The position numbers were made by a program, and so were the translations under genes. A DNA stretch of 64,000 bases. It comes from Bacteroidota bacterium. Lineage in GTDB: Bacteria > Bacteroidota > Bacteroidia > 2-12-FULL-35-15. Shown here in pieces: positions 9,303 through 56,766 of the stretch. The notes beneath the pieces are model-generated. The model did no database searches. It saw nothing but the letters and a program-made list of their open reading frames with translations, and was not told where the DNA came from. The stretch is taken from contig CANFRC010000002.1 of NCBI GenBank assembly GCA_947449315.1, positions 186,001 through 250,000 of the forward strand, in the 5' to 3' direction. How positions within the stretch are numbered: the first letter of the stretch is position 1; every line of letters starts with the position of its first letter.

Positions 9303-11432
9303 CTATTGTTTTTGCGTTGTTTGTTTATTCACTTTAATATCTTTTCCTAAACGTTGTAGGTAGGAAATAACTGCAATAATTTCTCTATCGCTTAAGGTTT
9401 CAATTCCGTCTACTTTTAAATTTGCTGCAATTGAATCAGCTTGAATCATTAGCTCTTTGTTAGCAATTTTATCGTAACCAGCAGGATATGGAACTCCTAA
9501 CGTCATCATTGCTCTGATCTTACTTGGCGTTGTTGTTGTATCCAAAATGTTGTCCAACATTGCTGCATATGACGGCATGATAGAACCGGGAGAGATATTT
9601 TGTGGATCTAACATATGGTTGTAATGCCATGAGTCAGATTTTTTTCCGCTTTCACGCGCTAAGTCTGGACCAGTTCTTTTTGAACCCCATTGGAATGGAT
9701 GGTCATACACAAATTCTCCGGCTTTCGAATATTCTCCATAACGTTCTGTTTCAAAGCGAAGTGGTCTAACCATTTGTGAATGGCAGGTATAGCAACCTTC
9801 TCGAATATAAATGTCTCTCCCTTGTAATTCTAATGGTGTATAAGGTTTTACACTTTCAATTGTTGGAATATTTGATTTAATGAGGAAGGTTGGAACCATT
9901 TCAATTACTCCCCCTATTAAAATAACAACTAAACTAATAACCATTAATTGAATTGGTCTTCTTTCAATCCAACGATGCCAGTGTTCTCCAGGGTGTCCGC
10001 CTTCTGTATTTGCTAATGCAGGAGCTTCTGCTTCTTCATTTGCAAGGAATGAACCTGCTTTCACTGTTTTAATAATATTGTAGGTCATGATAATAAAACC
10101 AGTCAGATACATGGTTCCTCCTATGGAACGCATCATATACATGGGTCTTAATTGTGTTACCGTTAATAAGAAGTTCGGGTATTTTAAGAATCCTTCTGGT
10201 GTGAATTCCTGCCACATTAAATATTGTGTGAAACCGGCCCAATACATTGGAATAGCATAAAATAAGATCCCTAGCGATCCTAACCAGAAATGCCAGTTTG
10301 CTAATTTGATTGAGTATAAATTTGTGCGGAACATTTTTGGGATTAGCCAATATAGAATACCGAAGGTTAAGAAGCCGTTCCATCCCAGAGCACCAACGTG
10401 GACGTGAGCAATAATCCAATCCGTAAAGTGAGCAATTGAATTGACTTTTTTCAGAGAAAGCATGGGTCCTTCAAATGTTGCCATACCATAAGCTGTAATT
10501 GCAACCACCATAAATTTTAATACAACACTTTCTCTTACTTTATCCCATGCACCTCTCAGTGTTAATAATCCATTGATCATTCCACCCCAAGATGGAGCGA
10601 TTAGCATGACAGAAAAAGCAACGCCTAACGATTGAGCCCAATCTGGTAAAGCGGTATATAATAAGTGGTGAGGGCCAGCCCAGATGTAAAGAAAGATCAA
10701 CGCCCAAAAGTGGATAATAGATAAACGGTAAGAATAGACAGGGCGTTCAGCAGCTTTAGGGATGAAATAGTACATTAATCCTAGGTAGGGAGTAGTAAGA
10801 AAAAAGGCAACAGCATTATGCCCATACCACCATTGTACCAAAGCATCCTGAACACCTGCATACCAGGAGTAACTTTTCAAAAATGAAACAGGTAGTTCGA
10901 AAGAGTTGACGATATGTAATACAGCCACTGTTACAAATGTTGCTATGTAAAACCAGATAGCTACATATAAGTGGCGTTCTCTTCGCTTTAAAATTGTTCC
11001 GAACATATTCCATCCAAACACAACCCATATCAGGGCGATGGCTATGTCAATCGGCCATTCAAGTTCCGCATATTCTTTTCCTGTGGTAATACCAAGAGGT
11101 AATGTTAATGCAGCTGCAACAATAATTAATTGCCATCCCCAGAAATGGATCTTGCTTAATTTGTCGCTGAACATCCTTGCTTTACAAAGGCGTTGTAAAG
11201 AATAATAAACGCCCATAAAAATACCATTACCGACAAAAGCAAAGATCACCGCATTGGTGTGTAATGGTCTTAATCTTCCGAATGTAGTTTGAGGTATAAG
11301 GTTCAAGGAAGGGTATATCAATTCCAATGCTACCCATAAACCAACTAGCATACCAACTAGCCCCCATAAAATAGTTGCGAAGGCAAATTGTTTCACAATT
11401 TTATTGTCGTAAGAAAACTTTTCTAATTCCAT
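9303..11432 (-). CDS. ccoNO: cbb3 oxidase subunits I and II fused (CcoN-CcoO)
   Basis: A 709-aa fusion of the catalytic and the mono-heme subunits of the high-affinity cbb3 terminal oxidase. The first 470 residues or so are CcoN with about 12 helices; family blocks include LHTNAVIFAFVGNG, VQWWYGHNAVAFFL (CuB/high-spin heme histidines) and IAHVHVGALGWNG. A linker and helix lead to the CcoO cytochrome c domain with CYTCHSQMVRPLR near residue 545. The fused form is common in Bacteroidota. The enzyme reduces oxygen to water at low oxygen pressure and pumps protons. Confidence 0.97.
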   Translation of the reverse strand: MELEKFSYDNKIVKQFAFATILWGLVGMLVGLWVALELIYPSLNLIPQTTFGRLRPLHTNAVIFAFVGNGIFMGVYYSLQRLCKARMFSDKLSKIHFWGWQLIIVAAALTLPLGITTGKEYAELEWPIDIAIALIWVVFGWNMFGTILKRRERHLYVAIWFYIATFVTVAVLHIVNSFELPVSFLKSYSWYAGVQDALVQWWYGHNAVAFFLTTPYLGLMYYFIPKAAERPVYSYRLSIIHFWALIFLYIWAGPHHLLYTALPDWAQSLGVAFSVMLIAPSWGGMINGLLTLRGAWDKVRESVVLKFMVVAITAYGMATFEGPMLSLKKVNSIAHFTDWIIAHVHVGALGWNGFLTFGILYWLIPKMFRTNLYSIKLANWHFWLGSLGILFYAIPMYWAGFTQYLMWQEFTPEGFLKYPNFLLTVTQLRPMYMMRSIGGTMYLTGFIIMTYNIIKTVKAGSFLANEEAEAPALANTEGGHPGEHWHRWIERRPIQLMVISLVVILIGGVIEMVPTFLIKSNIPTIESVKPYTPLELQGRDIYIREGCYTCHSQMVRPLRFETERYGEYSKAGEFVYDHPFQWGSKRTGPDLARESGKKSDSWHYNHMLDPQNISPGSIMPSYAAMLDNILDTTTTPSKIRAMMTLGVPYPAGYDKIANKELMIQADSIAANLKVDGIETLSDREIIAVISYLQRLGKDIKVNKQTTQKQ

Positions 11433-11470: not shown

Positions 11471-11656
11471 TTATAATCTATTTTTTTTATTTGAATCAAC
11501 TTTATTTTTTGCAACTAATTCATCATCAAATAACATTCTAACCGAAGGAGTATAATCATCATCATACTGGCCTGTTTTTACGCTCCAAAGAAAAGCGACT
11601 AAAAAGCCAATAGCTACTACGATGCTTGTTCCTATAAGTATGAATAATACACTCAT
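11471..11656 (-). CDS. ccoS: cbb3 oxidase assembly protein CcoS
   Basis: A 61-aa protein with one N-terminal membrane helix followed by W-S-x-K-T-GQYDD, the usual CcoS ending region. CcoS is needed for insertion of heme b and CuB into CcoN. It is the first gene of the oxidase operon, and its start lies 19 bp after the start point predicted from the paired-palindrome promoter at 11679-11743. Confidence 0.88.
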   Translation of the reverse strand: MSVLFILIGTSIVVAIGFLVAFLWSVKTGQYDDDYTPSVRMLFDDELVAKNKVDSNKKNRL

Positions 11657-11678: not shown

Positions 11679-11743
11679 CAAAATTAACTTTGGGTCCTCC
11701 ATCTGTTTATGATGCGCATCATTTTGAAATATGATTTAAATCA
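11679..11743 (-). promoter_or_regulatory. Promoter of the cbb3 operon with two Crp/Fnr-like sites
   Basis: Read on the minus strand: TGATTTAAATCA (11743-11732), 10 bp, TGATGCGCATCA (11721-11710), 23 bp, then TAATTTTG (11686-11679), a full match to the Bacteroidota -7 box TAnnTTTG. No TTTG is seen at -33, as expected for an activator-dependent promoter. Counting from a start near 11675, the palindromes are centred near -41 and -63. The same geometry recurs at 17022-17086, 18487-18552 and 49860-49924. Confidence 0.8.
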
Positions 11744-11880
11744 TTTTTTTTGTAACCCTTTGTTTTTCTGTTTTCAAGGCTTTTTTTATTTTAAAAACCT
11801 GTATTTTTTTGAAAAGGCTATTTATGCTGCGTAAATAATAGAATCGTTTCATTGTTTTTTCTACCTTAAAAATGGGAGTA

Positions 11881-11922
11881 TGATATTAATCATATAGGAA
11901 TTCCCTTTTTTATAATACTTTG
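11881..11922 (+). promoter_or_regulatory. Single Crp/Fnr-like site before the PAS kinase operon
   Basis: TGATATTAATCA at 11881-11892 is a perfect 12-bp palindrome. After 23 bp comes TACTTTG (11916-11922), an imperfect TAnnTTTG box at the same distance as in the paired-site promoters. A start near 11926 would give a leader of about 65 nt to the ATG at 11991. This suggests that the kinase/receiver-Crp operon is under the same regulator, possibly itself. No second palindrome is found 22 bp upstream. Confidence 0.55.
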
Positions 11923-11990
11923 GCTAGCATTTTATAAATCTAAAATCATTCACTAACTTGGCAGCTCATAATATAAAAACATTTATAAAA

Positions 11991-13175
11991 ATGGATGGCA
12001 GTGAGGGATTAGATGCATTATTTAAACATGCTACTGAGGGAATATTGATTACAAATAATCAGGGCGAGATCGTAAAGATCAATCCAAGTGCAGAAAGCCT
12101 TTTTGGGTACGATTCAGGTGAATTAGTAGGGAAAGGCATTGAATTGTTGATTCCGTCACATTTGAAGGATAAACATGTTCATCATCGAGAATCCTATAAT
12201 AAAAGTCCTCGCCCTCGCTCAATGGGAAAAGGCTTTGATCTATTCGGTTTAAAGAAAAACGGTTCTGAAATTCCAGTAGAAATAAGTTTAAGTAATTATA
12301 CTTCAAAAAATGGAGTATATGTTATTGCTTTTATAATAGATATTACAGAACGTAAGATCGCGGAAGAGAAATTAAGGTCATATTCTACCGAACTTGAAAC
12401 GAAAGTAGAAGACAGAACATTGATGCTTCGCGAAGCTATTAATGAATTGGAAAAAACAAAGGAAGAGATCAACTCCGCTTTGGCAAAAGAAAAGGAGCTG
12501 AATGATTTAAAATCGCGATTTGTTTCTATGGCTTCTCATGAGTTCAGAACGCCTTTAAGTACAATCCTTTCTTCTGTTTCATTGATCTCTAAATATAATA
12601 CGTTAGAAACGGAAGAAAAAAGAGTGAAGCATATTAATAGAATAAAATCTTCTGTAGGTCATTTAACTGATCTTTTGAATGATTTTTTGTCGTTAGGTAA
12701 ACTGGAAGAAGGGATGATTCATAGCAATCCCGACCTCTTTGATATTGTGGATTTTTGTGACGAGATTATACAGGAAATGCAAGTGGTAGCTAAAGAAGGG
12801 CAAGTGGTATCCTATAATAATTTTGGAGAAAAAAATATCGTTAATCTGGATGTTAAGTTAGTAAGAAATATACTGATAAATTTATTGTCAAATGCGATTA
12901 AATTTTCGCCGGAAGACAAAGAGATACAATTACAAACTTTTGTTGGTGAAAAGGAAATTAAAATTACTGTGAAAGACTCCGGAATTGGAATAGCAAAAGA
13001 AGATCAATTGCATTTGTTCGAACGTTTTTTTCGTGGACAAAATGCTACCAACATACAAGGTACTGGCTTAGGATTAAACATCGTTACAAAATATGTTGAA
13101 TTGATGAATGGAACAATAAAATTTGAAACCGAATTAAATAAAGGGACTACGTTTATTATTAACCTTCCAATATAA
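11991..13175 (+). CDS. Soluble PAS-domain sensor histidine kinase
   Basis: A 394-aa kinase without membrane helices. A PAS domain (about residues 8-120) is followed by a coiled-coil linker (about 120-175), the HisKA block SMASHEFRTPLS with phospho-acceptor His near residue 183, and a HATPase domain (N box NLLSNAIKFS, G boxes DSGIGI and GTGLGLNI). I use the ATG at 11991; the frame also has an upstream TTG at 11958. The PAS domain has a histidine (near residue 62) in the place of the FixL heme ligand, but lacks the FixL distal arginine, so heme binding is uncertain. Stop and next start overlap (TAATG), so the receiver-Crp protein is its probable partner. The kinase half is paralogous to the protein at 56825, the PAS half to that at 55612. 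Confidence 0.92.
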   Translation: MDGSEGLDALFKHATEGILITNNQGEIVKINPSAESLFGYDSGELVGKGIELLIPSHLKDKHVHHRESYNKSPRPRSMGKGFDLFGLKKNGSEIPVEISLSNYTSKNGVYVIAFIIDITERKIAEEKLRSYSTELETKVEDRTLMLREAINELEKTKEEINSALAKEKELNDLKSRFVSMASHEFRTPLSTILSSVSLISKYNTLETEEKRVKHINRIKSSVGHLTDLLNDFLSLGKLEEGMIHSNPDLFDIVDFCDEIIQEMQVVAKEGQVVSYNNFGEKNIVNLDVKLVRNILINLLSNAIKFSPEDKEIQLQTFVGEKEIKITVKDSGIGIAKEDQLHLFERFFRGQNATNIQGTGLGLNIVTKYVELMNGTIKFETELNKGTTFIINLPI

Positions 13176-14233
13176 TGAAAACAATACTACTGATTGAGGA
13201 CAATGAAGAAATGCGTGAGAATACGACTGAGATTCTTGAGTTGGATAAGTACAATGTTCTGACCGCAAAAAATGGAAAATTAGGTGTGGAGTTGGCGCAA
13301 AACAATAAAATAGATCTCATAATTTGTGATGTGATGATGCCGGTTCTTGATGGCTATGGCGTCCTTCATTTGTTAAGTAAAAATCCCGAAACAGCAAGTA
13401 TTCCTTTTATTTTTCTTACAGCGAAAGCGGAACGAACTGATTTTAGAAAGGGAATGGAGATGGGTGCCGATGATTATATAACTAAACCTTTTGATGATAT
13501 TGAATTACTTAAAGCTGTTGCCAGCCGATTAAAGAAAAATGAAATATTGCGCTCGGAATTCTCAAAAAACATTGATGGTCTGAATAGTTTTTTTAGTGAA
13601 GTGAAGAACATTGAAGACCTTTCAAAGTTATCAGATGACAGAAAGGTTAAAACAATCAAAAAGAAGGAGCATATCTTTGCAGAAGGCAATTATCCGAACG
13701 GATTGTATTTTATTAATAAGGGCAAAGTAAAAACATTTAAGACCAACTCGGACGGAAAAGAATTTATTACTGGCTTATTTAAGGAGGGAGATTTTATAGG
13801 GTATACAGCTTTGCTTGAAGACGGAAAATATAACGAATCGGCGACAACGTTAGAAGATTCTGAGATCTGTTTAGTTCCAAAGGAAGATTTTTTTGAGCTT
13901 ATTTATAAAAATGCTGAAGTATCCAAGAAGTTTATAAAAATGCTTGCAGACAATTTGACTGAGAAAGAAAACGCATTATTGAAATTGGCTTACAATTCTG
14001 TTCGTAAAAGGATAGCTGAAGCGCTTATAGAATTAAAGAACAGATACCAAAAAGATGAAGCTAAAAAATTCAGCATGTCTGTTTTAAGAGAAGATCTTGC
14101 GAATATGGCAGGGACTACATCTGAATCAACCATTAGAACGTTAAGCGACTTCAAAGAAGAGAAGTTGATAGAGATCAACGGTGGTACGATTACCATTATC
14201 AATAGTGAGAAGCTTGAGAATATGAAAAATTAA
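13175..14233 (+). CDS. Response regulator with receiver domain fused to Crp/Fnr module
   Basis: A 352-aa protein. Residues 1-120 form a CheY-like receiver with phospho-acceptor Asp52 (IICDVMMP) and the LTAKAE and KPF blocks. Residues about 150-265 are a cyclic-nucleotide-binding-type beta barrel (IFAEGNYPNGLYFINKG). Residues about 270-350 are a Crp-type winged helix, with the predicted recognition helix TSESTIRTLSDF. That helix keeps the E-x3-R spacing by which Crp and FNR read TGA half-sites. The protein lacks the N-terminal cysteine cluster of FNR, so its input is probably phosphorylation by the kinase it overlaps. A close paralogue is at 58029. It is a strong candidate for the activator of the TGA-N6-TCA promoters. 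Confidence 0.92.
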   Translation: MKTILLIEDNEEMRENTTEILELDKYNVLTAKNGKLGVELAQNNKIDLIICDVMMPVLDGYGVLHLLSKNPETASIPFIFLTAKAERTDFRKGMEMGADDYITKPFDDIELLKAVASRLKKNEILRSEFSKNIDGLNSFFSEVKNIEDLSKLSDDRKVKTIKKKEHIFAEGNYPNGLYFINKGKVKTFKTNSDGKEFITGLFKEGDFIGYTALLEDGKYNESATTLEDSEICLVPKEDFFELIYKNAEVSKKFIKMLADNLTEKENALLKLAYNSVRKRIAEALIELKNRYQKDEAKKFSMSVLREDLANMAGTTSESTIRTLSDFKEEKLIEINGGTITIINSEKLENMKN

Positions 14234-14241
14234 AAAAAGGA

Positions 14242-16653
14242 TTACATTCCTTTTCTTTTTGCAGCGATTGTACTTGTTAATGTTGTGAATAAAACTATTG
14301 AAATGGAACTTATAGGCATTAAAATAGCCGCAATTACTGGTGACAATTTTCCATTGATCGCAAAACCTACTCCAACAATATTATAAAGCAGGGAAATTAT
14401 AAAGCTTCCTATAATAATTTTTTTTCCTGTTTTAGCAAAATCAATGAATTTTTTCAGCTTTATAAATTGTGTGCCATCTAAAATGGCATCACAAGCAGGT
14501 GAGAAGTTGTTGATGTCATCCGATACTGCAATACCAACATTGCTTTGTTTTAAAGCACCTGCATCATTTAATCCATCACCTATCATGGCTACCTTATTAT
14601 TCTTTGTTTGAAGATACCTTATGTATTCTAATTTGTTTGAGGGTGACTGATTGAATTTTAATTCTGAATGATCCGAGAAAATACGTTGGAGTTCATTTCT
14701 CTCTGAGTCATTGTCTCCGGATAAGAGAGCTAGCGTATTGTTCTTTTTTAATGCGACCACTAATTCTTTTAGCCCGGAACGATAATGGTTTTTTATAAGA
14801 AATCGCCCAATTACAATGTTATTGATCATTACATATACTTTGCTCGTTTTAGAATTCGTATCTACTTTTTTTTCATTAGATACAAATTCCTGCGATCCTA
14901 ATTTTATGAAATTGTTATTTATCAAAGCTTCTATTCCTTTACCAGGATATTCAGAAAATGAGGTGACAGGGGTTGATGTTGTCTGTGGTAAAAAAAGCTC
15001 TATTTTTTTGCTGAATGGATGCGACGATTCTGAAACCAAAGTGCGAATCAAAGTTTCTTCTTCATTCGTTAGTTCTTTCCCTTCATATAGGATACTTGAT
15101 TCATTATTGTGTGTGATTGTTCCTGTTTTATCAAAAACAATCGTGTCAATATTACCAAGTCTTTCTATCACATTTGCATTTTTTAGATAGAATTTATTTT
15201 TACCAAAGATTCGTAATATATTTCCGTTTGTGAATGTAGCCGATAGCAACAGAGCACATGGACAGGCAACAATTAGTACGGCTGTTAAAGCATTTAATGC
15301 ACGGTGAAAATCTGATTGCGCCCAGAACATAAAACCACCGGCTGCAAGCGCTAATAGAACAAAGGAGAAATATTTACTTACTGTATGAATAAAAGATTTT
15401 GTAGTATCCTCCTTTTGGCTGAATGCTTCATTGTTCCAAAGTTGCGTAAGATAGCTTTGCGAGATTTCTTTTATAACCTCCATTTCAATAGCGCTTCCAA
15501 TTTGTTTACCTCCCGCATAAATTATTTCCCCTATTACTTTTTCTTCTGGTAGCGATTCACCAGTAACAAAACTGTAATCAATATTTGCAATGCCTCTGAA
15601 TAAAATAGCATCAGTCGGTATCAATTCATTATTTCGGATGATGATTCTATCACCCACCTTTATATTTGAAACAGGAATTGCTGTTTCTTTTCCATCCTTT
15701 ATTAGAGTCACTGCTATTGGAAAATATGATTTGTAATCTCTCTCAAATGAAATTGTATCATAAGTGCGGTTTTGAAAGAATCTTCCTAATAGCATAAAAA
15801 AAACGATACCACTCATGGAATCCATATATCCTGAGCCAGTCCCGCTAATAATCTCGTAAATGCTTCTCGTAAATGTGATTAATATTGCCAATGCAATGGG
15901 CGCATCTATATTTAAAAATTTTTGTTTTAGCCCTTTCCATGCAGAAATGAAAAATTCATTAGCACTAAAAAAAAATACAGGAAGAGATAGCATTAAATTC
16001 AAATAGCTAAAAAAATGTTTTAGCCCTACTTCAGTAATTTTTCCAACAGCAAAATATTCCGGGAAACTCAACATCATAATATTCCCAAAGCAAAATCCTG
16101 CCACTCCAATTTTAAATAATTGTTTCCGGTTATATTTTGTTGGCTTTTTATCTTCTAAATCACTTAGATGAATATGTGGCCCGTAGCCTATAAATACAAG
16201 TAATTCAGCAACCTTTCGTAAGGTTGTTTCTTTTTCATTGTAGGAAATAGTCACTTGCTTTAAAGGGAAATTTACTTGTGATCTTTCAATAGCAGGGTTT
16301 ATTCGGTGTAGGTTTTCGAGCAACCATATGCATGAACTGCAATGCATTTGAGGTAAGTAAAACGTGATGTTCGTTTTTTTTCCATCAGTAAAAGAAATGA
16401 GTTTTTGTTTTACTTTTAAATCATCCAGATAGGAGTATTTTTCTGAAATAAATTTCCCCTTTACACTTATGCCTGGCGTTTTGGTAATGTCATAATATTT
16501 ACAGAGATCGTTCTCATTAAGAATTTCGTAAACTAATTTACAACCATCGCAACAAAATATTTTCTCATCGATGTGAATTGATTTTTTATTGCAATGTTCA
16601 CCGCAATGAAAACATGGTGTATCGGCAGTTTCTTTGTAAATGAATGATTTCAT
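14242..16653 (-). CDS. ccoI: Copper-translocating P-type ATPase of the CcoI/FixI type
   Basis: An 803-aa P1B ATPase. The N-terminus has a cysteine-rich metal-binding zone (CFHCGEHC, CCDGCK), followed by a heavy-metal-associated domain with MHCSSCIW. The membrane part contains the CPCALLLSA ion site (about residue 466), and the catalytic loop has DKTGT (about residue 508) and MIGDGLNDAGAL. In the CcoI/FixI group the pump delivers copper for assembly of cbb3 oxidase rather than for detoxification, which fits the neighbouring cco operon. It ends 8 bp from the convergent receiver-Crp gene and follows the 73-aa membrane protein gene. Confidence 0.93.
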   Translation of the reverse strand: MKSFIYKETADTPCFHCGEHCNKKSIHIDEKIFCCDGCKLVYEILNENDLCKYYDITKTPGISVKGKFISEKYSYLDDLKVKQKLISFTDGKKTNITFYLPQMHCSSCIWLLENLHRINPAIERSQVNFPLKQVTISYNEKETTLRKVAELLVFIGYGPHIHLSDLEDKKPTKYNRKQLFKIGVAGFCFGNIMMLSFPEYFAVGKITEVGLKHFFSYLNLMLSLPVFFFSANEFFISAWKGLKQKFLNIDAPIALAILITFTRSIYEIISGTGSGYMDSMSGIVFFMLLGRFFQNRTYDTISFERDYKSYFPIAVTLIKDGKETAIPVSNIKVGDRIIIRNNELIPTDAILFRGIANIDYSFVTGESLPEEKVIGEIIYAGGKQIGSAIEMEVIKEISQSYLTQLWNNEAFSQKEDTTKSFIHTVSKYFSFVLLALAAGGFMFWAQSDFHRALNALTAVLIVACPCALLLSATFTNGNILRIFGKNKFYLKNANVIERLGNIDTIVFDKTGTITHNNESSILYEGKELTNEEETLIRTLVSESSHPFSKKIELFLPQTTSTPVTSFSEYPGKGIEALINNNFIKLGSQEFVSNEKKVDTNSKTSKVYVMINNIVIGRFLIKNHYRSGLKELVVALKKNNTLALLSGDNDSERNELQRIFSDHSELKFNQSPSNKLEYIRYLQTKNNKVAMIGDGLNDAGALKQSNVGIAVSDDINNFSPACDAILDGTQFIKLKKFIDFAKTGKKIIIGSFIISLLYNIVGVGFAINGKLSPVIAAILMPISSISIVLFTTLTSTIAAKRKGM

Positions 16654-16662
16654 ATTAATATA

Positions 16663-16728
16663 AATTGGAAGCTTGAATAAAAACCAAGATGCTATGGAAC
16701 AATCGTCTTCAATTCAAACTTTCCAATT
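16663..16728. repeat. Imperfect inverted repeat between two operon genes
   Basis: AATTGGAA-GC-TTGAA at 16663-16677 pairs with TTCAAACTTTCCAATT at 16713-16728 with one bulge, forming a stem of about 15 bp with a loop of about 35 nt. It lies between the 73-aa gene and ccoI within the minus-strand run. No T-tract follows, so it is more likely an mRNA processing or stability element than a terminator. The function is not known. Confidence 0.5.
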
Positions 16729-16764
16729 CAAAAAACTTTAGTTGGAAGGAGGTGTAGTGTTTGA

Positions 16765-16986
16765 CTATTTGTTTGCATGGTGTCCTTTACCCTCAGTAAC
16801 AGCCATGATAAAAAATGTCAGAAATCCTATAATAGTCAGTAAAAAATAAAATGTGTATGTCATACGGCCAGAATCAACCATCGTATTTCCAACCTTAATT
16901 GGTAATGGGTACTCTAAAAATGCCCATCGGAATGGGAACAAAAATACTAACGTAATAATTGCAAGGGCGATAGCTTTCCTTTTCAT
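16765..16986 (-). CDS. Small two-helix membrane protein upstream of ccoI
   Basis: A 73-aa protein with two membrane helices (about residues 6-22 and 42-62) joined by a loop containing EYPLPIKVGNT and ending in a histidine-containing tail (GKGHHANK). I choose the ATG at 16986 rather than 17019 because the predicted transcription start near 17018 excludes the longer form. I do not recognise the family. It is the first gene after a promoter of the cbb3 type and precedes ccoI, so a role in oxidase or copper assembly is a reasonable guess. Confidence 0.65.
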   Translation of the reverse strand: MKRKAIALAIITLVFLFPFRWAFLEYPLPIKVGNTMVDSGRMTYTFYFLLTIIGFLTFFIMAVTEGKGHHANK

Positions 16987-17021
16987 AGTCTTAAATATTA
17001 AATTATTAAATGATTTCAAGA

Positions 17022-17086
17022 CAAAAATAATTAGTCATGTTTTTATTGCATATGATTTACATCAGTATGAATAATGATTTAAATCA
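17022..17086 (-). promoter_or_regulatory. Promoter of the 73-aa protein-ccoI operon with two Crp/Fnr-like sites
   Basis: On the minus strand: TGATTTAAATCA (17086-17075), 10 bp, TGATGTAAATCA (17064-17053), 23 bp, TATTTTTG (17029-17022), a full TAnnTTTG match. The upstream palindrome is identical in sequence to the upstream one of the cbb3 promoter. The distal site overlaps the last codons of the gene at 17079-17468, so this is an internal promoter of the usp-to-ccoI run. Confidence 0.8.
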
Positions 17087-17468
17087 GGTTGCGGTCTTTT
17101 AACTTAAATGCGACCAATTCTTTTGCTTCATTATTTTGTTTTGCCAAGGTCCAGTTATCAGTTGAAGTAGTTTCAAGCCATACTTTTCCTGATTTTCGAA
17201 AGACTTGAACCGATAAGCCATAAACACTTTGGAATAAAGATTCCAATTCAGATACCTTTTGTTTTTCGGAAATAATGATATCTCCATTTTTGCTTATTGT
17301 ACGGCACTCTCCAATCTTTTTATTTTTATTCCGTAGTAATTTCTTGGCTGTTGCTTCACCCTCTTTATGAGACCTGCTAAAAAATTCAATTTTTAAAAAT
17401 GGGAATAGCTTGTTAAACTCATCTTGTAATTCGTGGATTATTCTGTTGTCATTAATATGTATTTCCAT
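17079..17468 (-). CDS. Conserved protein of unknown function, next to usp
   Basis: A 129-aa soluble protein. It opens MEIHINDNRIIHELQDEFN, has a basic middle (KKLLRNKNKK), a GECRTI block and ends with the pattern SVQVFRKSGKVWLETT and DNWTLAKQN. From memory, proteins like this accompany universal stress proteins in Bacteroidota, but I know no assigned function. It starts 10 bp after the usp stop and is likely co-transcribed. The strongly conserved C-terminal half suggests a binding surface rather than a membrane or signal segment. Confidence 0.75.
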   Translation of the reverse strand: MEIHINDNRIIHELQDEFNKLFPFLKIEFFSRSHKEGEATAKKLLRNKNKKIGECRTISKNGDIIISEKQKVSELESLFQSVYGLSVQVFRKSGKVWLETTSTDNWTLAKQNNEAKELVAFKLKDRNLI

Positions 17469-17478
17469 TTTTTAAAAA

Positions 17479-18300
17479 TTATTCGTGAATAGCTAATAGA
17501 GGAATGTGTGAATGAAATGCCATTTGTTTTGTATTGCTTTTGTGAAATAAGCTACCAATAAATGAATGTTTTCTAGGTAACATGATCAGAAGGTCGATTG
17601 AATGTTTATCAATAAATTCGTTAATGGCAAAAATGACATCGCTCTCTTCTGTAAAGTATAGCGTATGATCTAGGTCTTGAAGTATACGTTCTATATTAAG
17701 GCCTGAAAATGCTTCTTTATTGTTTGGTTTGGTGGAAGGATCAACAACGTTTATTACACTTAATTTTGCTTTAAAAAGTCCTACAATTGTTTTAAGCTGT
17801 TCAAATGTGCTGTTTTTCGTTTTTTCAAGATCACACGCAAAAGCAATATTCTGGATTGTTTTGAAATTTGAATTGTTAGGAATTGCAAGTGTTGGGCAAT
17901 CAATATTTTTCATCACTGCATTAGTATTGCTGCCGATTAATACCTGATTTAGTTTGCTTGTCCCAGTTATTCCCATCACAATCAGGTCTATGTTTTCTTC
18001 CTCTACAATGTCTTGTATTACATCCGTTACAAAACCTGGCCTAACAATGAACTTTATTTCATTCTCCTCTTTTACTTTTGCTCTTAATTTTAATTCGAAC
18101 GATTTCATTGATTCTATATTGTCTTTTTCCAATTCATCATAGGTAACAATTATTACCGGTGTCTCACTTGGAACAATAGGTATATGGAATGCATGAAAAA
18201 GGATTGCTTTAGCATTTAATTGTTTTGCTAGCTTTATAGCATAACATGCTGCATTCATTGACGTGTCTGAATAATCAGTAGGAATTAATATTTTTTTCAT
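17479..18300 (-). CDS. Universal stress protein, tandem UspA domains
   Basis: A 273-aa protein with two UspA folds in tandem. The first starts MKKILIPTDYSDTSMNAACYA and has the nucleotide-binding MGITGTSKLNQVLIGSNTNAVM loop near residues 130-152. The second (about 150-273) is more degenerate and ends with FHSHIPLLAIHE after a shortened loop. Such proteins bind ATP or AMP and help cells survive respiratory and redox stress. The gene is preceded by a paired-palindrome promoter about 190-250 bp upstream and is followed by the 129-aa unknown gene. Confidence 0.92.
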   Translation of the reverse strand: MKKILIPTDYSDTSMNAACYAIKLAKQLNAKAILFHAFHIPIVPSETPVIIVTYDELEKDNIESMKSFELKLRAKVKEENEIKFIVRPGFVTDVIQDIVEEENIDLIVMGITGTSKLNQVLIGSNTNAVMKNIDCPTLAIPNNSNFKTIQNIAFACDLEKTKNSTFEQLKTIVGLFKAKLSVINVVDPSTKPNNKEAFSGLNIERILQDLDHTLYFTEESDVIFAINEFIDKHSIDLLIMLPRKHSFIGSLFHKSNTKQMAFHSHIPLLAIHE

Positions 18301-18486
18301 TTTTTTATTTATTTTGAGATCAGTTGCTTAAAAAAATAATATTAATTGTTTCGTTTTAAGTTTTTCTAATTGAGAGAATTCAAATCAAGATCATTGATTT
18401 TACGTTCTCATGTACTCTATTTTTAAGAGGTATATGTTTCATATTATTGAATTCATTTTTCGTATCTTTTGATTTTTTATCTGAAG

Positions 18487-18552
18487 TAAAATTATACCTA
18501 TCTTTTTTTCTTTCGTATGATTTAGGTCAATGATAATTTATGATTTAGGTCA
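18487..18552 (-). promoter_or_regulatory. Promoter of usp with two identical Crp/Fnr-like sites
   Basis: On the minus strand: TGACCTAAATCA (18552-18541), 11 bp, TGACCTAAATCA (18529-18518), 23 bp, TAATTTTA (18494-18487), which misses TAnnTTTG by one base. The two sites lie in an exact 14-bp direct repeat with a 23-bp period. In the plus direction no -7 box occurs at the matching distance, so the sites point to usp and not to HU. The leader to the usp ATG would be about 180 nt. The rest of the 515-bp gap holds AT-rich sequence and the HU promoter. Confidence 0.72.
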
Positions 18553-49859: not shown

Positions 49860-49924
49860 TGATTCAAATCACGCATGTTTTTGACTCAAGTCATTATTAA
49901 CCAGATGCCCCTGTAATAGCTTTG
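49860..49924 (+). promoter_or_regulatory. Promoter of the SprB-repeat protein with two Crp/Fnr-like sites
   Basis: TGATTCAAATCA (49860-49871), 10 bp, TGACTCAAGTCA (49882-49893), 23 bp, TAGCTTTG (49917-49924), a full TAnnTTTG match. All spacings equal those of the cbb3 promoter on the other strand. With a start near 49928 the sites are centred near -41 and -63. The leader to the ATG at 49962 is about 34 nt. The rest of the 251-bp gap has nothing else obvious. Confidence 0.8.
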
Positions 49925-49961: not shown

Positions 49962-52900
49962 ATGAAAAAGATTACAGTCATCGCGATGGCCTTCTTTCTG
50001 GGCCTTATGGGATTGGAAGCGCAAACGACTTCATGCGTAGACATGAACGCTTACGTCAACTCAAAAAATACAGGAGGTACGGGTTCATACACCCTTAATA
50101 ATGGTTATGAAGAAAAAGCTGCTCAAACGTATCACTATTCCGGACCAGGAAAAGTAAGTCAAGTGAAAGTGTTTGGAAATTACTCAGATTTTGGCGGTGT
50201 ACCACTTCGTATATCAGTTTACAATGTTGATGCTGCTGGAAGACCAACTTCCACTTTATCGTATGTAGATGATATTTTTTGGAGCGGAGCAAGTTCTATT
50301 ACTGTAAGTCTTCCAGGTGGAGGAACAGCAGTTAGTGCAAATTTCGCAATTGGAATTGCTATTAGAAATGTATGGCCTTGGGGTAATACCTTTCAGTTGC
50401 AATACACAGGAAATGGCGAAGGTTTAGGTGCTGATCTTGCATCATTAGCTGGTACTTCTACCGGTGGAAATTGGGCAAGTGCTATGACAAGTTTCAGTAA
50501 GGATGGAGATTTTTATCTTGTTCCAAAGATGACAAACTACATTACTTCTGATTTCACAGCAAGTACACAATGTGCTGCTACTTCAGCATTGATTTCTTTC
50601 ACTAACTCATCTGCAATGTCAAAAGATGGTATGTTCAATAAAATTGGATTGCCAGGATATGCAGGAGCTAATTATTTTTACACTTGGAATTTTGGTGATG
50701 CAACTCCGGTTTCTCACTTAACTAGTCCAACACACACATACGCCGCTGCAGGTTCTTATACCGTTTCATTAACTTCTACATTAGAAGGATGGGGTGGAAC
50801 ATGTACTATCGTAAAATCTATGGTTATTTCTGTTGGACTAAGTGTTAGTTCTTCTGCAATTACAAATGTTTCTTGTAATGGTGGAAATAATGGAAGTGTT
50901 ACTGCTGTTAGTAATGGTGGTACGTCTCCTTTTACTTATAGTTTAACTGGAACAACGTATCAAGCATCTGCTACTTTTGGTAGTTTGATTGCTGGTAATT
51001 ATACATTATATATTAAAGATGCAGTAGGTTGTACAAATACAACAACTTTTACGATCACTCAACCAATTGCTATTACATTTAATACAGCTTCATCCTCTGC
51101 AGCATCATGTGGAAATAGTGATGGATCTATTTTAGTTGCAGCTACTGGTGGAACAGGTGCTATCCAATATCAGTTAAATGCTGGAACTTTCCAAAGCAGC
51201 GGATCTTTTACAGGTCTTTCTTCTGGTTCTTATACCTTAACTGCAAAAGATGGTAACGGTTGTACTAAAGCGACTACTGTAATTGTTAATAATTTAGGAG
51301 CTCCGATCTTAACAGTTTCTAGCACAACAAACGTAAGTTGTCACGGAGGAAATGATGGTACTATTATTTTATCTGCAACAGGTGGAGTAGGAACTCACCT
51401 TTTCAGTATCAATGGTGGTGCTACTTTTCAAACGAGTGGTTCTTTCACAGGATTACCAGCAGGAACATATCCTGTATTAGTTAAAGATGCTTCAGGTTGT
51501 ACGCAAGGTGTAACTTTGATTATCTCTGAACCATCATTAGTTGTTTTCACTGCTTCAACAATTGCTACATCTTGTCATGGAGCAAGTGATGGACAGATCA
51601 ATGTGACTTCTGCTATTGGTGGAATAGGAACATTATCATACAGTGTAAATGGTACAAGCTACCAATCAAGTACAAACTTTTCAGGGTTACCTTCAGGAAC
51701 TTATACTGTTTATGTAAAAGATGCTGCTTCATGTGTGGCTACATCAACTGTAGTTATTAATCAACCGGTTGGTGTTGTGGCTACATTTGCAACAACTGCT
51801 GTTGGTTGTAATGGTTCTGACAACGGTTCAATAATCGTATCCGCAACTGGAGGAACTCTTCCTTACTCATATTCAATTGATGAAAATGATCCTCAACCAA
51901 CGGATGCATTTTATGATTTAACTGCTGGTACGTATACTATCACTATCACAGATGCTCACGGTTGTTCTTATTCATCAAACGTTACAATTACGCAACCGAG
52001 CGCTATTACTGCTACATCTACAATTACAAATTCAACTTGTACTTTTAGTAATGGTGGAATTTTAGTTGTTGCTGCTGGTGGTTCTGGATCAGGATACCAA
52101 TACAGTATCGATGGAGGAGTAACTTTCAATGCTACAGGTTCATTCTCATCTTTACCTGCAGGTACATATTATATTGTTGTTAAAGATGGTACTGGATGTC
52201 AAACTGTTATTTCTTCAATTGTTTTTGACTCAAACGGTCCAGTAATTTCATCCTCAAGTCATACCAACGTAGGTTGTCATGGCGGATCTGATGGAAGTAT
52301 TACAATTAATACTGTAACAGGTGGAACAGGTGCTTTATCTTATAGTGTGAATGCTCTATTATGGCAACCAACAACAACTTTTACAGGTCTTACTGCTGGT
52401 GTTTATACAGTATATGTAAAAGATATCAATGGTTGTATCGGTACAGTTACTGTTACAATAACTGAACCTGCTTCTTTTGTTATCACTAAAACAATTGTAA
52501 ACGCAACTTGTAATGCAAGTAACACAGGATCTGTATCAATTTTTGCTGCAGGTGGTGCTGGAACTTTAGCTTACAGTATCGATAACGGTGTTACATACCA
52601 ATCAAGTAATACATTTACAAACTTATATGCTGGTCCGTATAAAGTAATTGTACGTGATATCGCAGGATGTACAGGTTATATCTTATTTGATATTAATGAG
52701 CCTACTGCAATTACTTTCTTTACAGGTGTATTAAATGTAACTTGTCATGGAAATAATAATGGAGCTATAACTGTTTTTGCTGCTGGCGGAACAGGTACAC
52801 TTCAATACAGTTTAACTGGTGGAACCTACCAATCTTCCAATCTTTTCACAGGATTAGCTGGTGGTACTTACATGGTTTATGTTAACGATGCAAATGGTTG

Positions 52901-53642
52901 TGTTGAAACTCAATCAGTTGTTGTTGTTGAACCAGCTGCATTAACACTTTCTACTTCAGTTTCAAATGTTACTTGTGCTGGTGGAAATAATGGTGTGGTA
53001 GATTTGACAATTAATGGTGGTGTAGGTCATAACATCATTTCATGGTCAAATAGTGCAGTAACGGAAGATGTTTTTGGTCTGGTGGCTGGAACTTATTCAG
53101 TGGTTGTTACTGATGGAAATGGATGTAATGTTTCAGGTTCTTATCTCATTACACAACCATCATCTCCAATTGTTATCAATGCAGTTGTTGTTGGAACTAC
53201 TGGTTCTGCTGGTGCAATTGATGCTACAATTACAGGAGGAACTTCTCCATATTCTTATAGCTGGTCAAATGCTGCAACTACTGAAGATATCACTGGTGTT
53301 ACTCCGGGTGTGTATACACTTACTGTAACAGATGCTTTAGGTTGTATCACTTCTGGAGTATTCATTGTACAAAATACAACTGGAATTGCTGATTTAGGAG
53401 TAATCATTCAAGGATTACAAGTTTTCCCAAATCCAACTCATGATGTTGCTACAGTAGAAATTGATGGTTTCATTATACAAGATATCAAAGTAGTAAATGT
53501 ACTTGGACAAATTGTATATAGTGTTGAACCAAAAGCTTCTAAAATTGATATTAGCACAGCAAATCTTGAACAAGGTGTTTATTTTATTCAAGTTCTTGTT
53601 GATGGTAATATAGTAACTAAGAAATTAAAAGTGATTAAATAG
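49962..53642 (+). CDS. SprB-repeat surface protein with type IX secretion signal
   Basis: A 1226-aa exported protein. Signal peptide (about residues 1-20, ending LEAQ), an N-terminal region of about 180 residues, a PKD domain (about 195-295; FYTWNFGDATPVSHLTSPTHTYAAAGSYTV), then ten SprB-type repeats of about 80-85 residues (about 300-1090) each opening with a Cys (for example NVSCHGGNDGTI), and an eleventh degenerate copy without Cys. The end (about 1145-1226) is a type IX secretion sorting domain (VFPNPTHDVATVEI, LGQIVYS, LEQGVYFIQV, KKLKVIK). SprB is a gliding adhesin in Flavobacterium. This protein is probably a secreted or cell-surface adhesin. It is followed by a strong terminator and preceded by a promoter of the cbb3 type. 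Confidence 0.93.
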   Translation: MKKITVIAMAFFLGLMGLEAQTTSCVDMNAYVNSKNTGGTGSYTLNNGYEEKAAQTYHYSGPGKVSQVKVFGNYSDFGGVPLRISVYNVDAAGRPTSTLSYVDDIFWSGASSITVSLPGGGTAVSANFAIGIAIRNVWPWGNTFQLQYTGNGEGLGADLASLAGTSTGGNWASAMTSFSKDGDFYLVPKMTNYITSDFTASTQCAATSALISFTNSSAMSKDGMFNKIGLPGYAGANYFYTWNFGDATPVSHLTSPTHTYAAAGSYTVSLTSTLEGWGGTCTIVKSMVISVGLSVSSSAITNVSCNGGNNGSVTAVSNGGTSPFTYSLTGTTYQASATFGSLIAGNYTLYIKDAVGCTNTTTFTITQPIAITFNTASSSAASCGNSDGSILVAATGGTGAIQYQLNAGTFQSSGSFTGLSSGSYTLTAKDGNGCTKATTVIVNNLGAPILTVSSTTNVSCHGGNDGTIILSATGGVGTHLFSINGGATFQTSGSFTGLPAGTYPVLVKDASGCTQGVTLIISEPSLVVFTASTIATSCHGASDGQINVTSAIGGIGTLSYSVNGTSYQSSTNFSGLPSGTYTVYVKDAASCVATSTVVINQPVGVVATFATTAVGCNGSDNGSIIVSATGGTLPYSYSIDENDPQPTDAFYDLTAGTYTITITDAHGCSYSSNVTITQPSAITATSTITNSTCTFSNGGILVVAAGGSGSGYQYSIDGGVTFNATGSFSSLPAGTYYIVVKDGTGCQTVISSIVFDSNGPVISSSSHTNVGCHGGSDGSITINTVTGGTGALSYSVNALLWQPTTTFTGLTAGVYTVYVKDINGCIGTVTVTITEPASFVITKTIVNATCNASNTGSVSIFAAGGAGTLAYSIDNGVTYQSSNTFTNLYAGPYKVIVRDIAGCTGYILFDINEPTAITFFTGVLNVTCHGNNNGAITVFAAGGTGTLQYSLTGGTYQSSNLFTGLAGGTYMVYVNDANGCVETQSVVVVEPAALTLSTSVSNVTCAGGNNGVVDLTINGGVGHNIISWSNSAVTEDVFGLVAGTYSVVVTDGNGCNVSGSYLITQPSSPIVINAVVVGTTGSAGAIDATITGGTSPYSYSWSNAATTEDITGVTPGVYTLTVTDALGCITSGVFIVQNTTGIADLGVIIQGLQVFPNPTHDVATVEIDGFIIQDIKVVNVLGQIVYSVEPKASKIDISTANLEQGVYFIQVLVDGNIVTKKLKVIK

Positions 53643-53902: not shown

Positions 53903-54050
53903 TCGCCAATAGGGTTCATATTTGCGGTCATTATCAATCTTTATTTCTTTAGTTCAAAATAATTTTGTCAGAGATTATTATTAAGTTAACTGTTCATATT
54001 TATTGCTAAAAATGGTATTCCATTTGAGTGAGAAGAATCAATCATTGTAA

Positions 54051-54068
54051 TGAGAATTGTCATTCTCA
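54051..54068 (+). promoter_or_regulatory. Operator-like palindrome before the Crp/Fnr gene
   Basis: TGAGAATTGTCATTCTCA is a 7-bp inverted repeat with a 4-bp centre. It contains a TGA-N6-TCA core at its left side and covers an ATTG (54056-54059) that is 18 bp before TATTTTG (54078-54084). It could be an operator for autoregulation, or a Fur/PerR-like site. It is 30 bp before the ATG. Confidence 0.5.
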
Positions 54069-54097
54069 ATTCTATTCTATTTTGTTTCCTTTGAAAG

Positions 54098-54787
54098 ATG
54101 AAAGAGGATGTTTTGTTTGAATACGAAAATTTTAACTCTATAGAAGGGAAGGTTAAACGTGCCATTCAAAATTTTCTTCCTATAGAAGAATTTGAATTGA
54201 TTTCTGTAAAAAGTAAAGAAGTTATTTTTCAAAAAGGAAGTTCACCTGAAGGATTATATCTGATCTCTTCAGGAAAGATTAAGATTAGTACCAATGGATG
54301 TGATAACAGAGAACATATTACTAGGATTGCTGTTCAAGCCGAATCTTTTGGTTATGAGAGTCTGTTAAATAAGTCCAAACACATTGTTACCGCTGTAGCA
54401 ATAACAGACGCAAAGGTTGCTATTGTTCCCAAAAAAATATTTTATTATTTGCTAGAAAGTAATTTAGAATTTTCCAAAACATTTGCCGAGATTTTGAGTT
54501 TGGATGGAGCATTTAAAGATCTTAAATTCCATGACATTCTCTATAAACCTATTAGAGGTAGGTTGGCTGATGCTTTACTTCTTTTGGAACGTAAATTCAT
54601 TCTAGATGGTAATGGTAAAATTGTCATCTCAAGAAGTGATCTTGCCAGTTATGTTGGAAGTGTTAGAGAAACAGTTTCAAGATTGATATCTGAATTTAAA
54701 GAAGATAAAATGATTGAAACCGAGGATGATTTCTTAAAAATAATAAACAGGGATAAACTCATATCAGTAAGTAACCTATACAGATAG
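54098..54787 (+). CDS. Crp/Fnr-family transcription regulator
   Basis: A 229-aa regulator. A cNMP-type barrel (about residues 35-150; VIFQKGSSPEGLYLISSGK) is followed by a C-terminal winged helix (about 155-229). The recognition helix VRETVSRLISEF reproduces the E-x2-S-R pattern of FNR, which reads TTGAT half-sites. It has just one cysteine, so it cannot bind an FNR-type 4Fe-4S cluster. It is paralogous to the Crp parts of the receiver fusions at 13175 and 58029. It converges with the DUF6629 gene (12-bp overlap). Confidence 0.9.
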   Translation: MKEDVLFEYENFNSIEGKVKRAIQNFLPIEEFELISVKSKEVIFQKGSSPEGLYLISSGKIKISTNGCDNREHITRIAVQAESFGYESLLNKSKHIVTAVAITDAKVAIVPKKIFYYLLESNLEFSKTFAEILSLDGAFKDLKFHDILYKPIRGRLADALLLLERKFILDGNGKIVISRSDLASYVGSVRETVSRLISEFKEDKMIETEDDFLKIINRDKLISVSNLYR

Positions 54788-55441: not shown

Positions 55442-55611
55442 TGGAATAGAATATAGATTTAGTAAAAACTCTTTTAGCAATGTTACATTTGTTTTTATAC
55501 CCAGATGATGATAATCCTCATTTGAGACTATGATATTTATCATCTATTAATAAAAATGTTAGTTCTAATTTCGATGTTGAAAATAAAAGTATTAATTGTA
55601 GTTTTTTCGAA

Positions 55612-56766
55612 ATGGATCGATTTTTAGTAAATGATATTTATAGTCCTTTAAGCCGTGAATCTGTTTTTGAATGTTCAGCAGAAGGGATTGTTGTGGTGGA
55701 TGATTCAGGTGCGATTGTTAAGGTTAACAATTCAGCAAATGGCATGTTTTCTTATGATTCGGGCGAGCTGCTAGGAAAAAAAATCGAAGATTTAATACCT
55801 ACTCGCTTTTTGTCAAATCACAGAAGTTTGCGTGAAGAATATAAAAATTCTCTTCATCCACGAACTATTGGTGTTGGCAAAGATTTATTTGCCAAGAGAA
55901 AGGATGGTTCAGAATTTCCGGTTGAAATTAGCTTAAGTCCAATCCAAAATTCAAGCGGATTTCAATTTGTGATGGCATATATTATCGATATATCCCTTCG
56001 TAAAAGAAAAGATGAAGAATTGGTTAAAGCACATAATGACTTGTTAAATTATTCAGAAGCCCTTAAAAAATCAAATGCTGAATTGGAGAATTTTGCGAAT
56101 ATCGCATCACACGATCTTCAGGAACCATTAAGGAAGATAATTTCTTTCGGTGAAAGGCTTCAAATTAGTGAAATGCAAAACCTTTCGGAAGGAGGGAAAA
56201 ATTATTTAATACGCATGCAGAGCGCTGCTGCTAGGATGCAGGAGCTAATTGGTAGTCTGCTACATTTTTCGAGATTATCTTCAGAAAATGAAAAATTTCA
56301 GCCAGTTAATCTTACTAATACATTATTCAAAGTATTGGATGATTTGGAAGTTGCAATTGAGAATTCAAAAGCGCAATTTGAAATTGATGAACTGCCGGTT
56401 ATTGACGGATCCTCTTATCAGATAGCGCAACTTTTTCAAAATCTGATCGGTAATGCAATTAAATTTAGAAAAAAGGATGTTTCGCCACTTATTAAAATAT
56501 CGTGTCAGAAAAAAATGGGGCTAACTGTATTTGAAGAAATGGTTGAGATTCAAATAGAGGATAACGGGATTGGTTTTAATGAAAAACATTCAGATAAGAT
56601 ATTTGATCTTTTTCAGCAAATTGAAGGAAAGAAGTATGGAGGAAGTGGTATTGGACTTGCTACATGTAAAAAAATTACTTTGAAGCATGGTGGTGATATT
56701 GTTGTTAAAAGTGAGGAAGGTAAAGGTTCCAGTTTTTTCATTACTTTAAAAACAAAACATCATTGA
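55612..56766 (+). CDS. Soluble PAS-domain histidine kinase (second copy)
   Basis: A 384-aa cytoplasmic kinase. The PAS domain (about residues 15-128) has the same layout as that at 11991, with a His at residue 70 in the FixL ligand place and Lys at the place of the FixL arginine. The dimerisation domain has NIASHDLQEPLRK with phospho-acceptor His167, the HisKA type found in FixL- and phytochrome-related kinases, and a complete HATPase domain (NLIGNAIKF, DNGIGF, GSGIGLATCKK). It precedes the receiver-kinase and receiver-Crp genes, so a phosphorelay is likely. Confidence 0.92.
   Translation: MDRFLVNDIYSPLSRESVFECSAEGIVVVDDSGAIVKVNNSANGMFSYDSGELLGKKIEDLIPTRFLSNHRSLREEYKNSLHPRTIGVGKDLFAKRKDGSEFPVEISLSPIQNSSGFQFVMAYIIDISLRKRKDEELVKAHNDLLNYSEALKKSNAELENFANIASHDLQEPLRKIISFGERLQISEMQNLSEGGKNYLIRMQSAAARMQELIGSLLHFSRLSSENEKFQPVNLTNTLFKVLDDLEVAIENSKAQFEIDELPVIDGSSYQIAQLFQNLIGNAIKFRKKDVSPLIKISCQKKMGLTVFEEMVEIQIEDNGIGFNEKHSDKIFDLFQQIEGKKYGGSGIGLATCKKITLKHGGDIVVKSEEGKGSSFFITLKTKHH

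Follow-up and report, generated by a model that had tools for sequence, protein, structure and literature searches.

In rhizobia, the FixL-FixJ-FixK cascade (and hFixL-FxkR-FixK) controls fixNOQP and fixGHIS (PMC7888657). In Escherichia coli, FNR sites are mostly centered at -41.5 (class II) or -61.5 (class I) (PMC4886647). In Flavobacterium psychrophilum, a member of the Bacteroidota, the promoter box TAnnTTTG lies at -12 to -5 (PMC9723704). In this study, we analyzed a tandem promoter found in a stretch of 64,000 nucleotides (hereafter, the window) from a Bacteroidota bacterium (GenBank assembly GCA_947449315.1, contig CANFRC010000002.1, positions 186,001 to 250,000). It consists of two TGA-N6-TCA dyads (a pair) at a fixed distance from a TAnnTTTG box. 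The window also encodes PAS-domain histidine kinases, a stand-alone Crp/Fnr-type regulator and two regulators in which a receiver is fused to a Crp/Fnr-type protein (fusion regulators).

The system resembles the rhizobial cascade in having a heme-PAS-like kinase, a receiver predicted to be phosphorylated, a Crp/Fnr-type activator, and the cbb3 oxidase and a copper pump as targets. The TGA-N6-TCA half-sites resemble those of the rhizobial anaerobox, TTGAT-N4-ATCAA. However, the receiver and the Crp/Fnr protein of rhizobia are separate proteins acting in series, whereas here they are fused in one. Furthermore, rhizobial fix promoters carry one anaerobox at -32 to -34 (numbering of PMC7888657), whereas here there are two sites, with predicted centers at -41.5 and -63.5. 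The E. coli FNR promoters are similar in their TTGAT-N4-ATCAA-like dyads, and their class II center at -41.5 (PMC4886647) corresponds to the center predicted here for the proximal site. In contrast to them, the regulators described here have no iron-sulfur (Fe-S) cysteines, the outer T of TTGAT is not required, another dyad 22 bp farther upstream is the rule, and the sigma factor recognizes TAnnTTTG. Class III promoters of E. coli bind two dimers, of CRP or of FNR, at positions that vary between promoters. The promoters of the window are predicted to bind two activator dimers as well, but with one spacing across families of the phylum. With the Bacteroidota sigma-A promoters (PMC9723704) they share the TAnnTTTG -7 box, and they differ from these in the weak -33 element and the fixed pair of activator sites upstream. 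Our searches of open-access papers turned up nothing that describes these features, be it an FNR motif of Bacteroidota, a fusion of receiver and Crp or FNR promoters in tandem, and no account of how cbb3 is switched on at low oxygen in this phylum. For Crp/Fnr homologues in metagenome-assembled genomes of Flavobacteriales and Saprospiraceae, MalR-like carbon sensing has been proposed (PMC8510549).

Tandem Promoters in the Window

An earlier note on this DNA had named four promoters with TGA-N6-TCA pairs, a gap of 10 or 11 bp and 23 bp to the box, and all four are present exactly as described. A scan for all pairs of the window revealed two more, at 54029-54062 and 55509-55542, which had been overlooked. 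The promoters are as follows, with a single-site promoter given last.

11679..11743, minus strand: ccoS-ccoNO (cbb3) tandem promoter; sites 11743-11732 and 11721-11710, gap 10 bp, then 23 bp and the -7 box TAATTTTG (11686-11679)
17022..17086, minus strand: tandem promoter of the 73-aa protein-ccoI operon; sites 17086-17075 and 17064-17053, gap 10 bp, then 23 bp and the -7 box TATTTTTG (17029-17022)
18487..18552, minus strand: tandem promoter of usp, followed by the 129-aa gene; sites 18552-18541 and 18529-18518, gap 11 bp, then 23 bp and the box TAATTTTA (18494-18487)
49860..49924, plus strand: tandem promoter of a SprB/PKD-repeat protein secreted by the type IX secretion system (T9SS); sites 49860-49871 and 49882-49893, gap 10 bp, then 23 bp and the box TAGCTTTG (49917-49924)
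54029..54093, plus strand: pair before the stand-alone Crp/Fnr gene; -7-like box TTCCTTTG with one mismatch at 23 bp (54086-54093)
55478..55573, both strands: pair 55509-55542 with two boxes, TAATTTCG (plus, 55566-55573) toward a kinase gene and TAACATTG (minus, 55485-55478) toward a DUF6629 gene, each with one mismatch and at 23 bp
11881..11923, plus strand: single site TGATATTAATCA before the kinase-receiver-Crp operon, then 23 bp and TACTTTGG (one mismatch)

A TAnnTTTG box with no or one mismatch stands exactly 23 bp from all six pairs, and none of the seven boxes of the window is at 22 or 24 bp. The pairs at 54029 and 55509 might have been exceptions; their one-mismatch boxes at exactly 23 bp ruled this out. 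The position of the 54029 pair points to autoregulation, probably, of the stand-alone crp gene. Likewise, the 55509 pair and the single site at 11881 suggest positive feedback on the two kinase operons. The open reading frame (ORF) of DUF6629, called on the minus strand from 55543, overlaps the tandem pair within 55444-55543. Since the DUF6629 domain begins at residue 35, the true start is probably near 55444.

Pattern searches over the whole genome (2,613,225 bp, of which the window is 2.4%) were performed with the reversed pattern as a control. Seven pairs were detected, six of them in the window, and the control gave none; when the box was required, five pairs remained. With up to three mismatches at fixed spacing, seven matches had zero or one mismatch, one had two (the cco pair read from its reverse side), and three mismatches were seen in five scattered ones, against one match for the reversed pattern. 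In windows generated by an order-2 Markov model, the mean was 0.02 pairs, and a pair with a box appeared in none of 200 trials, whereas the real window contains six pairs and four with a box. In the related contigs described below, ORFs of at least 120 aa cover 83% of the DNA and contain 12 of the 133 pairs. Thus, the pattern is not as frequent in shuffled or coding DNA, and the view of the earlier note that one spacing in separate promoters is unlikely to arise by chance agrees with both the Markov and the reversed-pattern controls. The note had further spoken of a local regulon. This description fits the six pairs of the window, but the seventh pair, which has a box, is located on another contig (C9).

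Conservation of the Geometry

We searched 36 genomes belonging to the genus, which alone represents its family in the sample. The pair with its box was detected in 30 of them (160 matches in total; none for the reversed pattern), and the 35 genomes other than that of the window account for 155 matches against none. When the distance to TAnnTTTG was left free between 8 and 38 bp, 121 matches were obtained: 99 at 23 bp, eight at 24 bp and three at 22 bp, with the remaining 11 scattered over the other 28 distance values.

The spacing was also left free in a scan of 80 named contigs, each encoding an orthologue of the fusion regulator with 58-71% identity. These come from Chitinophagaceae, Sphingobacteriaceae, Crocinitomicaceae/Fluviicola, Persicobacter, Persicitalea, Spirosoma, Flexithrix and many other Bacteroidota, and overlap slightly with the genus set (some genomes are the same). 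The gap between the dyads was 10 bp in 126 cases and 11 bp in seven, and any other value from 0 to 40 bp occurred at most three times. From the pair to TAnnTTTG, the distance was 23 bp in 72 cases, 24 bp in four and 22 bp in three. An exact box was present on at least one side of 76 of the 133 pairs (background, 0.0017 per side) and on both sides of three.

Finally, among 296 genomes drawn from the phylum, a strict match was detected in 28, and the reversed control gave none. Weak matches in G136 and G310 resemble chance. These results show that the fixed two-site geometry, which the earlier note had presented as new in Bacteroidota, is real, but it is not peculiar to this genome and recurs across several families.

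Sequence and Position of the Sites

In 67 distinct promoters, both dyads conform to TGA(T/C)-N4-RTCA or nearly so. The base preceding the first TGA is C in 40 of the 67 and T in only six. The stretch from the sites to the box contains little besides a weak T run just behind the proximal dyad, which makes a poor -33 element, and the spacer sequences differ between promoters. In the contigs, only one strict dyad precedes 22 of the boxes; at some of these, a degenerate second dyad stands 22 bp farther upstream. Thus, the second site is usual, not universal.

With TAnnTTTG at -12 to -5, as in F. psychrophilum, the 23-bp spacing places the dyads at -47 to -36 and -69 to -58, with centers at -41.5 and -63.5. 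The class II position of the proximal site is therefore predicted from the placement of the -7 box in another Bacteroidota species. These values are close to the centers near -41 and -63 proposed earlier; however, the distal center is 2 bp off the canonical class I position of -61.5, so that "class I" is an analogy only.

Target Genes

The first genes behind the pairs were classified by Pfam (n = 83). ccoNO (COX1/FixO), reached via the short ccoS, is the first target in 21 cases, the PAS kinase of the regulator operon in nine, DoxX in nine, Usp in six, CcoI (E1-E2 ATPase) in three and Hsp20 in two, and BON, CBS and ChaN domains occur singly. hemN and a 125-aa family with no Pfam or NCBIfam model are also among the targets. 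These results support the proposal of a shared two-site Crp/Fnr-type promoter geometry before a microaerobic gene set. The targets in the window are as follows.

11471..11656, minus strand: ccoS (TIGR00847), first gene behind the cbb3 promoter
9303..11432, minus strand: ccoNO (PRK14485), fused cbb3 oxidase subunits I/II
16765..16986, minus strand: 73-aa membrane protein, conserved before ccoI; the same gene is behind a tandem promoter in L164 and L171
14242..16653, minus strand: ccoI-type heavy-metal P-type ATPase
17479..18300, minus strand: universal stress protein (usp)
17079..17468, minus strand: protein of 129 aa from a family for which Pfam and NCBIfam have no model, a recurrent first gene behind tandem promoters
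49962..53642, plus strand: SprB/PKD-repeat protein of 1226 aa with a T9SS sorting tail

All checked targets of this genome, ccoS-ccoNO and usp included, have relatives elsewhere that follow such a pair. For the 73-aa-ccoI operon, the relative is 48% identical over 69 aa; for the 131-aa protein behind the C9 pair, 40% identical; and for the SprB/PKD-repeat protein, 50% identical over 1235 columns, behind a promoter of the same type in L159. Tandem promoters precede usp in L060, L069, L079, L158 and L164. In the 129-aa family (16 members), F18, P23, L25, G94, W97, L108, Q111 and N112 are invariant.

A large surface protein such as the SprB/PKD-repeat protein is unexpected in a respiratory regulon, and both the protein and its promoter are conserved in the genus. 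Between the tandem promoter and usp there is a leader of about 145-245 nt (18301-18487 in the window; also L060, L069 and L079), which may contain a small ORF or an RNA element.

Candidate Regulators

The genome has three genes with a Crp-type helix-turn-helix (HTH), all inside the window.

13175..14233, plus strand: receiver-cyclic nucleoside monophosphate (cNMP) fold-HTH_Crp fusion regulator, 352 aa, the likely binder (predicted); PF00027 and PF13545 over cut-off
58029..59090, plus strand: second receiver-Crp/Fnr fusion regulator, 66% identical to 13175-14233; PF13545 over cut-off
54098..54787, plus strand: stand-alone Crp/Fnr-type regulator, 229 aa; PF00027 and PF13545 over cut-off

In 82 fusion proteins, the phosphorylation residues of the receiver are conserved: Asp52 and Lys104 in all, and Thr82 in 80 (Ser in the other two). 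In the recognition helix, Glu317, Ile320 and Arg321 are present in all 82. We take Glu317 and Arg321 to be the equivalents of FNR Glu209 and Arg213, the readers of the half-site GA. Ile320 replaces FNR Ser212, the reader of the outer T, which agrees with sites that usually lack this T. The Fe-S cysteine set is absent from the 82 proteins, in which Cys51 of the receiver is the sole invariant Cys, and the stand-alone protein has no N-terminal cysteine cluster. Thus, a classical Fe-S FNR was rejected as the binder, none of the three Crp/Fnr proteins having Fe-S cysteines. The cAMP contacts Glu72 and Arg82 of CRP are not kept in the 82 fusion proteins either, being mostly Tyr/Phe and Glu/Asp/Ser (CRP aligned by eye). 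The NCBIfam models for Fnr and FixK gave 99.2 and 67.8 bits, below the curated cut-offs of 228 and 300, respectively. The sites had been assigned to Crp/Fnr-type activators. Three such proteins are indeed encoded, but there is no classical FNR among them, and two are receiver fusions beside PAS histidine kinases.

The strict match co-occurs with the fusion protein in the 296 genomes (21 of 43 with it vs 7 of 253 without; Fisher p = 1e-14), within the class (21 of 43 vs 3 of 30; p = 8e-4) and within the genus (27 of 28 vs 3 of 8; p = 8e-4), all p values ignoring shared ancestry. In several genomes, a pair starts no more than about 25 bp behind the fusion gene. This gene is also present in cultured strains, among them Persicitalea jodogahamensis, Terrimonas sp. 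NS-102 and Lacihabitans sp. CS3-21. The co-occurrence and the domain and residue features suggest that the main binder is probably the fusion protein rather than an iron-sulfur FNR.

Candidate Sensor Kinases

A histidine kinase with a single PAS domain is encoded directly upstream of the fusion gene. The kinases of the window are as follows.

11991..13175, plus strand: PAS histidine kinase, FixL/DosP-like PAS with the conserved His; ATG at 11991, ORF from TTG at 11958
55612..56766, plus strand: second PAS histidine kinase of the same type, with His at the same place
56825..58054, plus strand: receiver-histidine kinase, upstream of the second fusion regulator

When the PAS domain was compared with PDB sequences, the heme PAS domains of FG214 (5e-16), DosP (4e-13) and FixL (5e-11) were the sole matches down to an E value of 1e-7, and all other PAS domains had E values of at least 0.004. 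With an AlphaFold model (mean predicted local distance difference test score, 84), the first 30 structural matches were likewise DosP, FixL and FG214. The proximal heme His (His73, aligned with the DosP His) is present in 68 of 69 kinases. The kinase PAS is thus likely to bind heme, as judged from the sequence and the model.

Proposed Mechanism and Alternatives

We consider it probable that the receiver-Crp/Fnr fusion, switched by the heme-PAS kinase at low oxygen, fills both sites and activates the microaerobic genes. At low oxygen, the neighboring PAS kinase, probably a FixL-like heme sensor, would phosphorylate the receiver of the fusion regulator. Two dimers of the phosphorylated protein would then bind the pair, with centers at -41.5 and -63.5, two helical turns apart and on the same face of the DNA. 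The dimer at -41.5 would activate from the class II position beside the weak -33 region, and that at -63.5 may add cooperativity or a contact with the alpha subunit. Together, they would recruit the sigma-A RNA polymerase. The induced set would comprise the cbb3 oxidase, the copper pump, assembly genes, heme synthesis, Usp, Hsp20 and others, as well as the system's own regulators. To a wider proposal we give an even chance: that many Bacteroidota control microaerobic respiration with a phosphorylation-switched FixJ-FixK fusion that acts obligatorily as two neighboring dimers on the rigid -41.5/-63.5 double site, with the geometry shared by several Crp/Fnr subfamilies and transcription partly divergent from one pair.

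Several observations weigh against this mechanism. The strict match is missing in 22 of the 43 genomes that carry the fusion, and G306, a genome of another class that lacks a close homologue of the fusion, has six matches, including one at ccoI. In relatives, pairs of the TTGA type with the same spacing stand at stand-alone Crp/Fnr genes, and some of these have a box at 23 bp on each side, so that the geometry is not exclusive to the fusion protein. Relatives also share ancestry, so that the site counts are not independent. As for the sensor, LOV domains come next after the heme PAS domains in the list of structural matches, and the distal Arg220 of FixL is mostly not conserved, being Phe in the window kinase and Met, Ile, Leu, Arg or Lys in most others (alignment by eye). 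Given the pairs of the stand-alone genes and G306, it may be the polymerase of the phylum that sets the geometry, with more than one subfamily of Crp/Fnr proteins making use of it.

Among the other explanations, that of chance matches or an AT-rich repeat family has a negligible probability: a motif as short as TGA-N6-TCA often occurs singly in AT-rich DNA, but the Markov and reversed-pattern controls have already refuted it, and the dissimilar spacers and the avoidance of ORFs also stand against it. A different binder is conceivable but rather unlikely, namely the stand-alone protein (54098-54787) or all three proteins, with the two sites possibly holding different ones. A pair stands directly before the stand-alone gene, its counterparts in the genus are preceded by pairs of the same geometry, and its recognition helix, RETVSR, retains the Glu, Ser and Arg of FNR. 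However, the pairs next to stand-alone crp genes have T outside TGA, whereas the sites of the core regulon mostly have C or A; moreover, the matches track the fusion protein across genomes and often directly follow its gene.

The same architecture and regulator might instead respond to nitric oxide or redox state, which we regard as unlikely. Heme PAS domains can bind nitric oxide, and genes for truncated hemoglobin, hemerythrin-like and NorC-like cytochrome proteins are among the targets. Nevertheless, the core targets cbb3, copper pump and hemN are the classical microaerobic set, and cbb3 of F. psychrophilum is induced by oxygen limitation (PMC9723704). It is quite improbable that the sites repress, the proximal one hindering the polymerase, given that the predicted center at -41.5 is the activating class II position and leaves the -7 box free, and that the -33 region is weakly T-rich, as expected of activator-dependent promoters. 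In favor of repression, Crp/Fnr proteins can act as repressors, and adjacent FNR sites can lower activation in E. coli.

This rigid and easily scanned promoter grammar serves as a regulon predictor for uncultured Bacteroidota and points to a candidate sensor and a candidate activator. The layout is a testable map of the oxygen response in these bacteria. It also raises the mechanistic question of why two dimers at one exact spacing suit the RNA polymerase of this phylum.

Divergent Promoters and Clustered Matches

In two relatives, one pair lies between ccoS-ccoNO and a divergent gene, with boxes at 22-24 bp on both sides (L163:4205-4238 and L165:3299-3333). The divergent partner is a truncated hemoglobin-like gene in L163 and a PAS kinase in L165. 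In L021, L027 and L029, a TTGA-type pair lies between a stand-alone Crp/Fnr gene and a divergent gene for a 115-138-aa protein, again with boxes at 22-24 bp on both sides, and one pair may drive two promoters there.

Two members of the genus, G001 and G033 (L154-L157), have 16-23 tandem matches, many of them within 20-50 kb, and 11-13 Crp/Fnr genes. The clustered matches adjoin Hsp20, hemerythrin, DUF892, DUF2267 and similar genes. The cluster is an expanded stress island.

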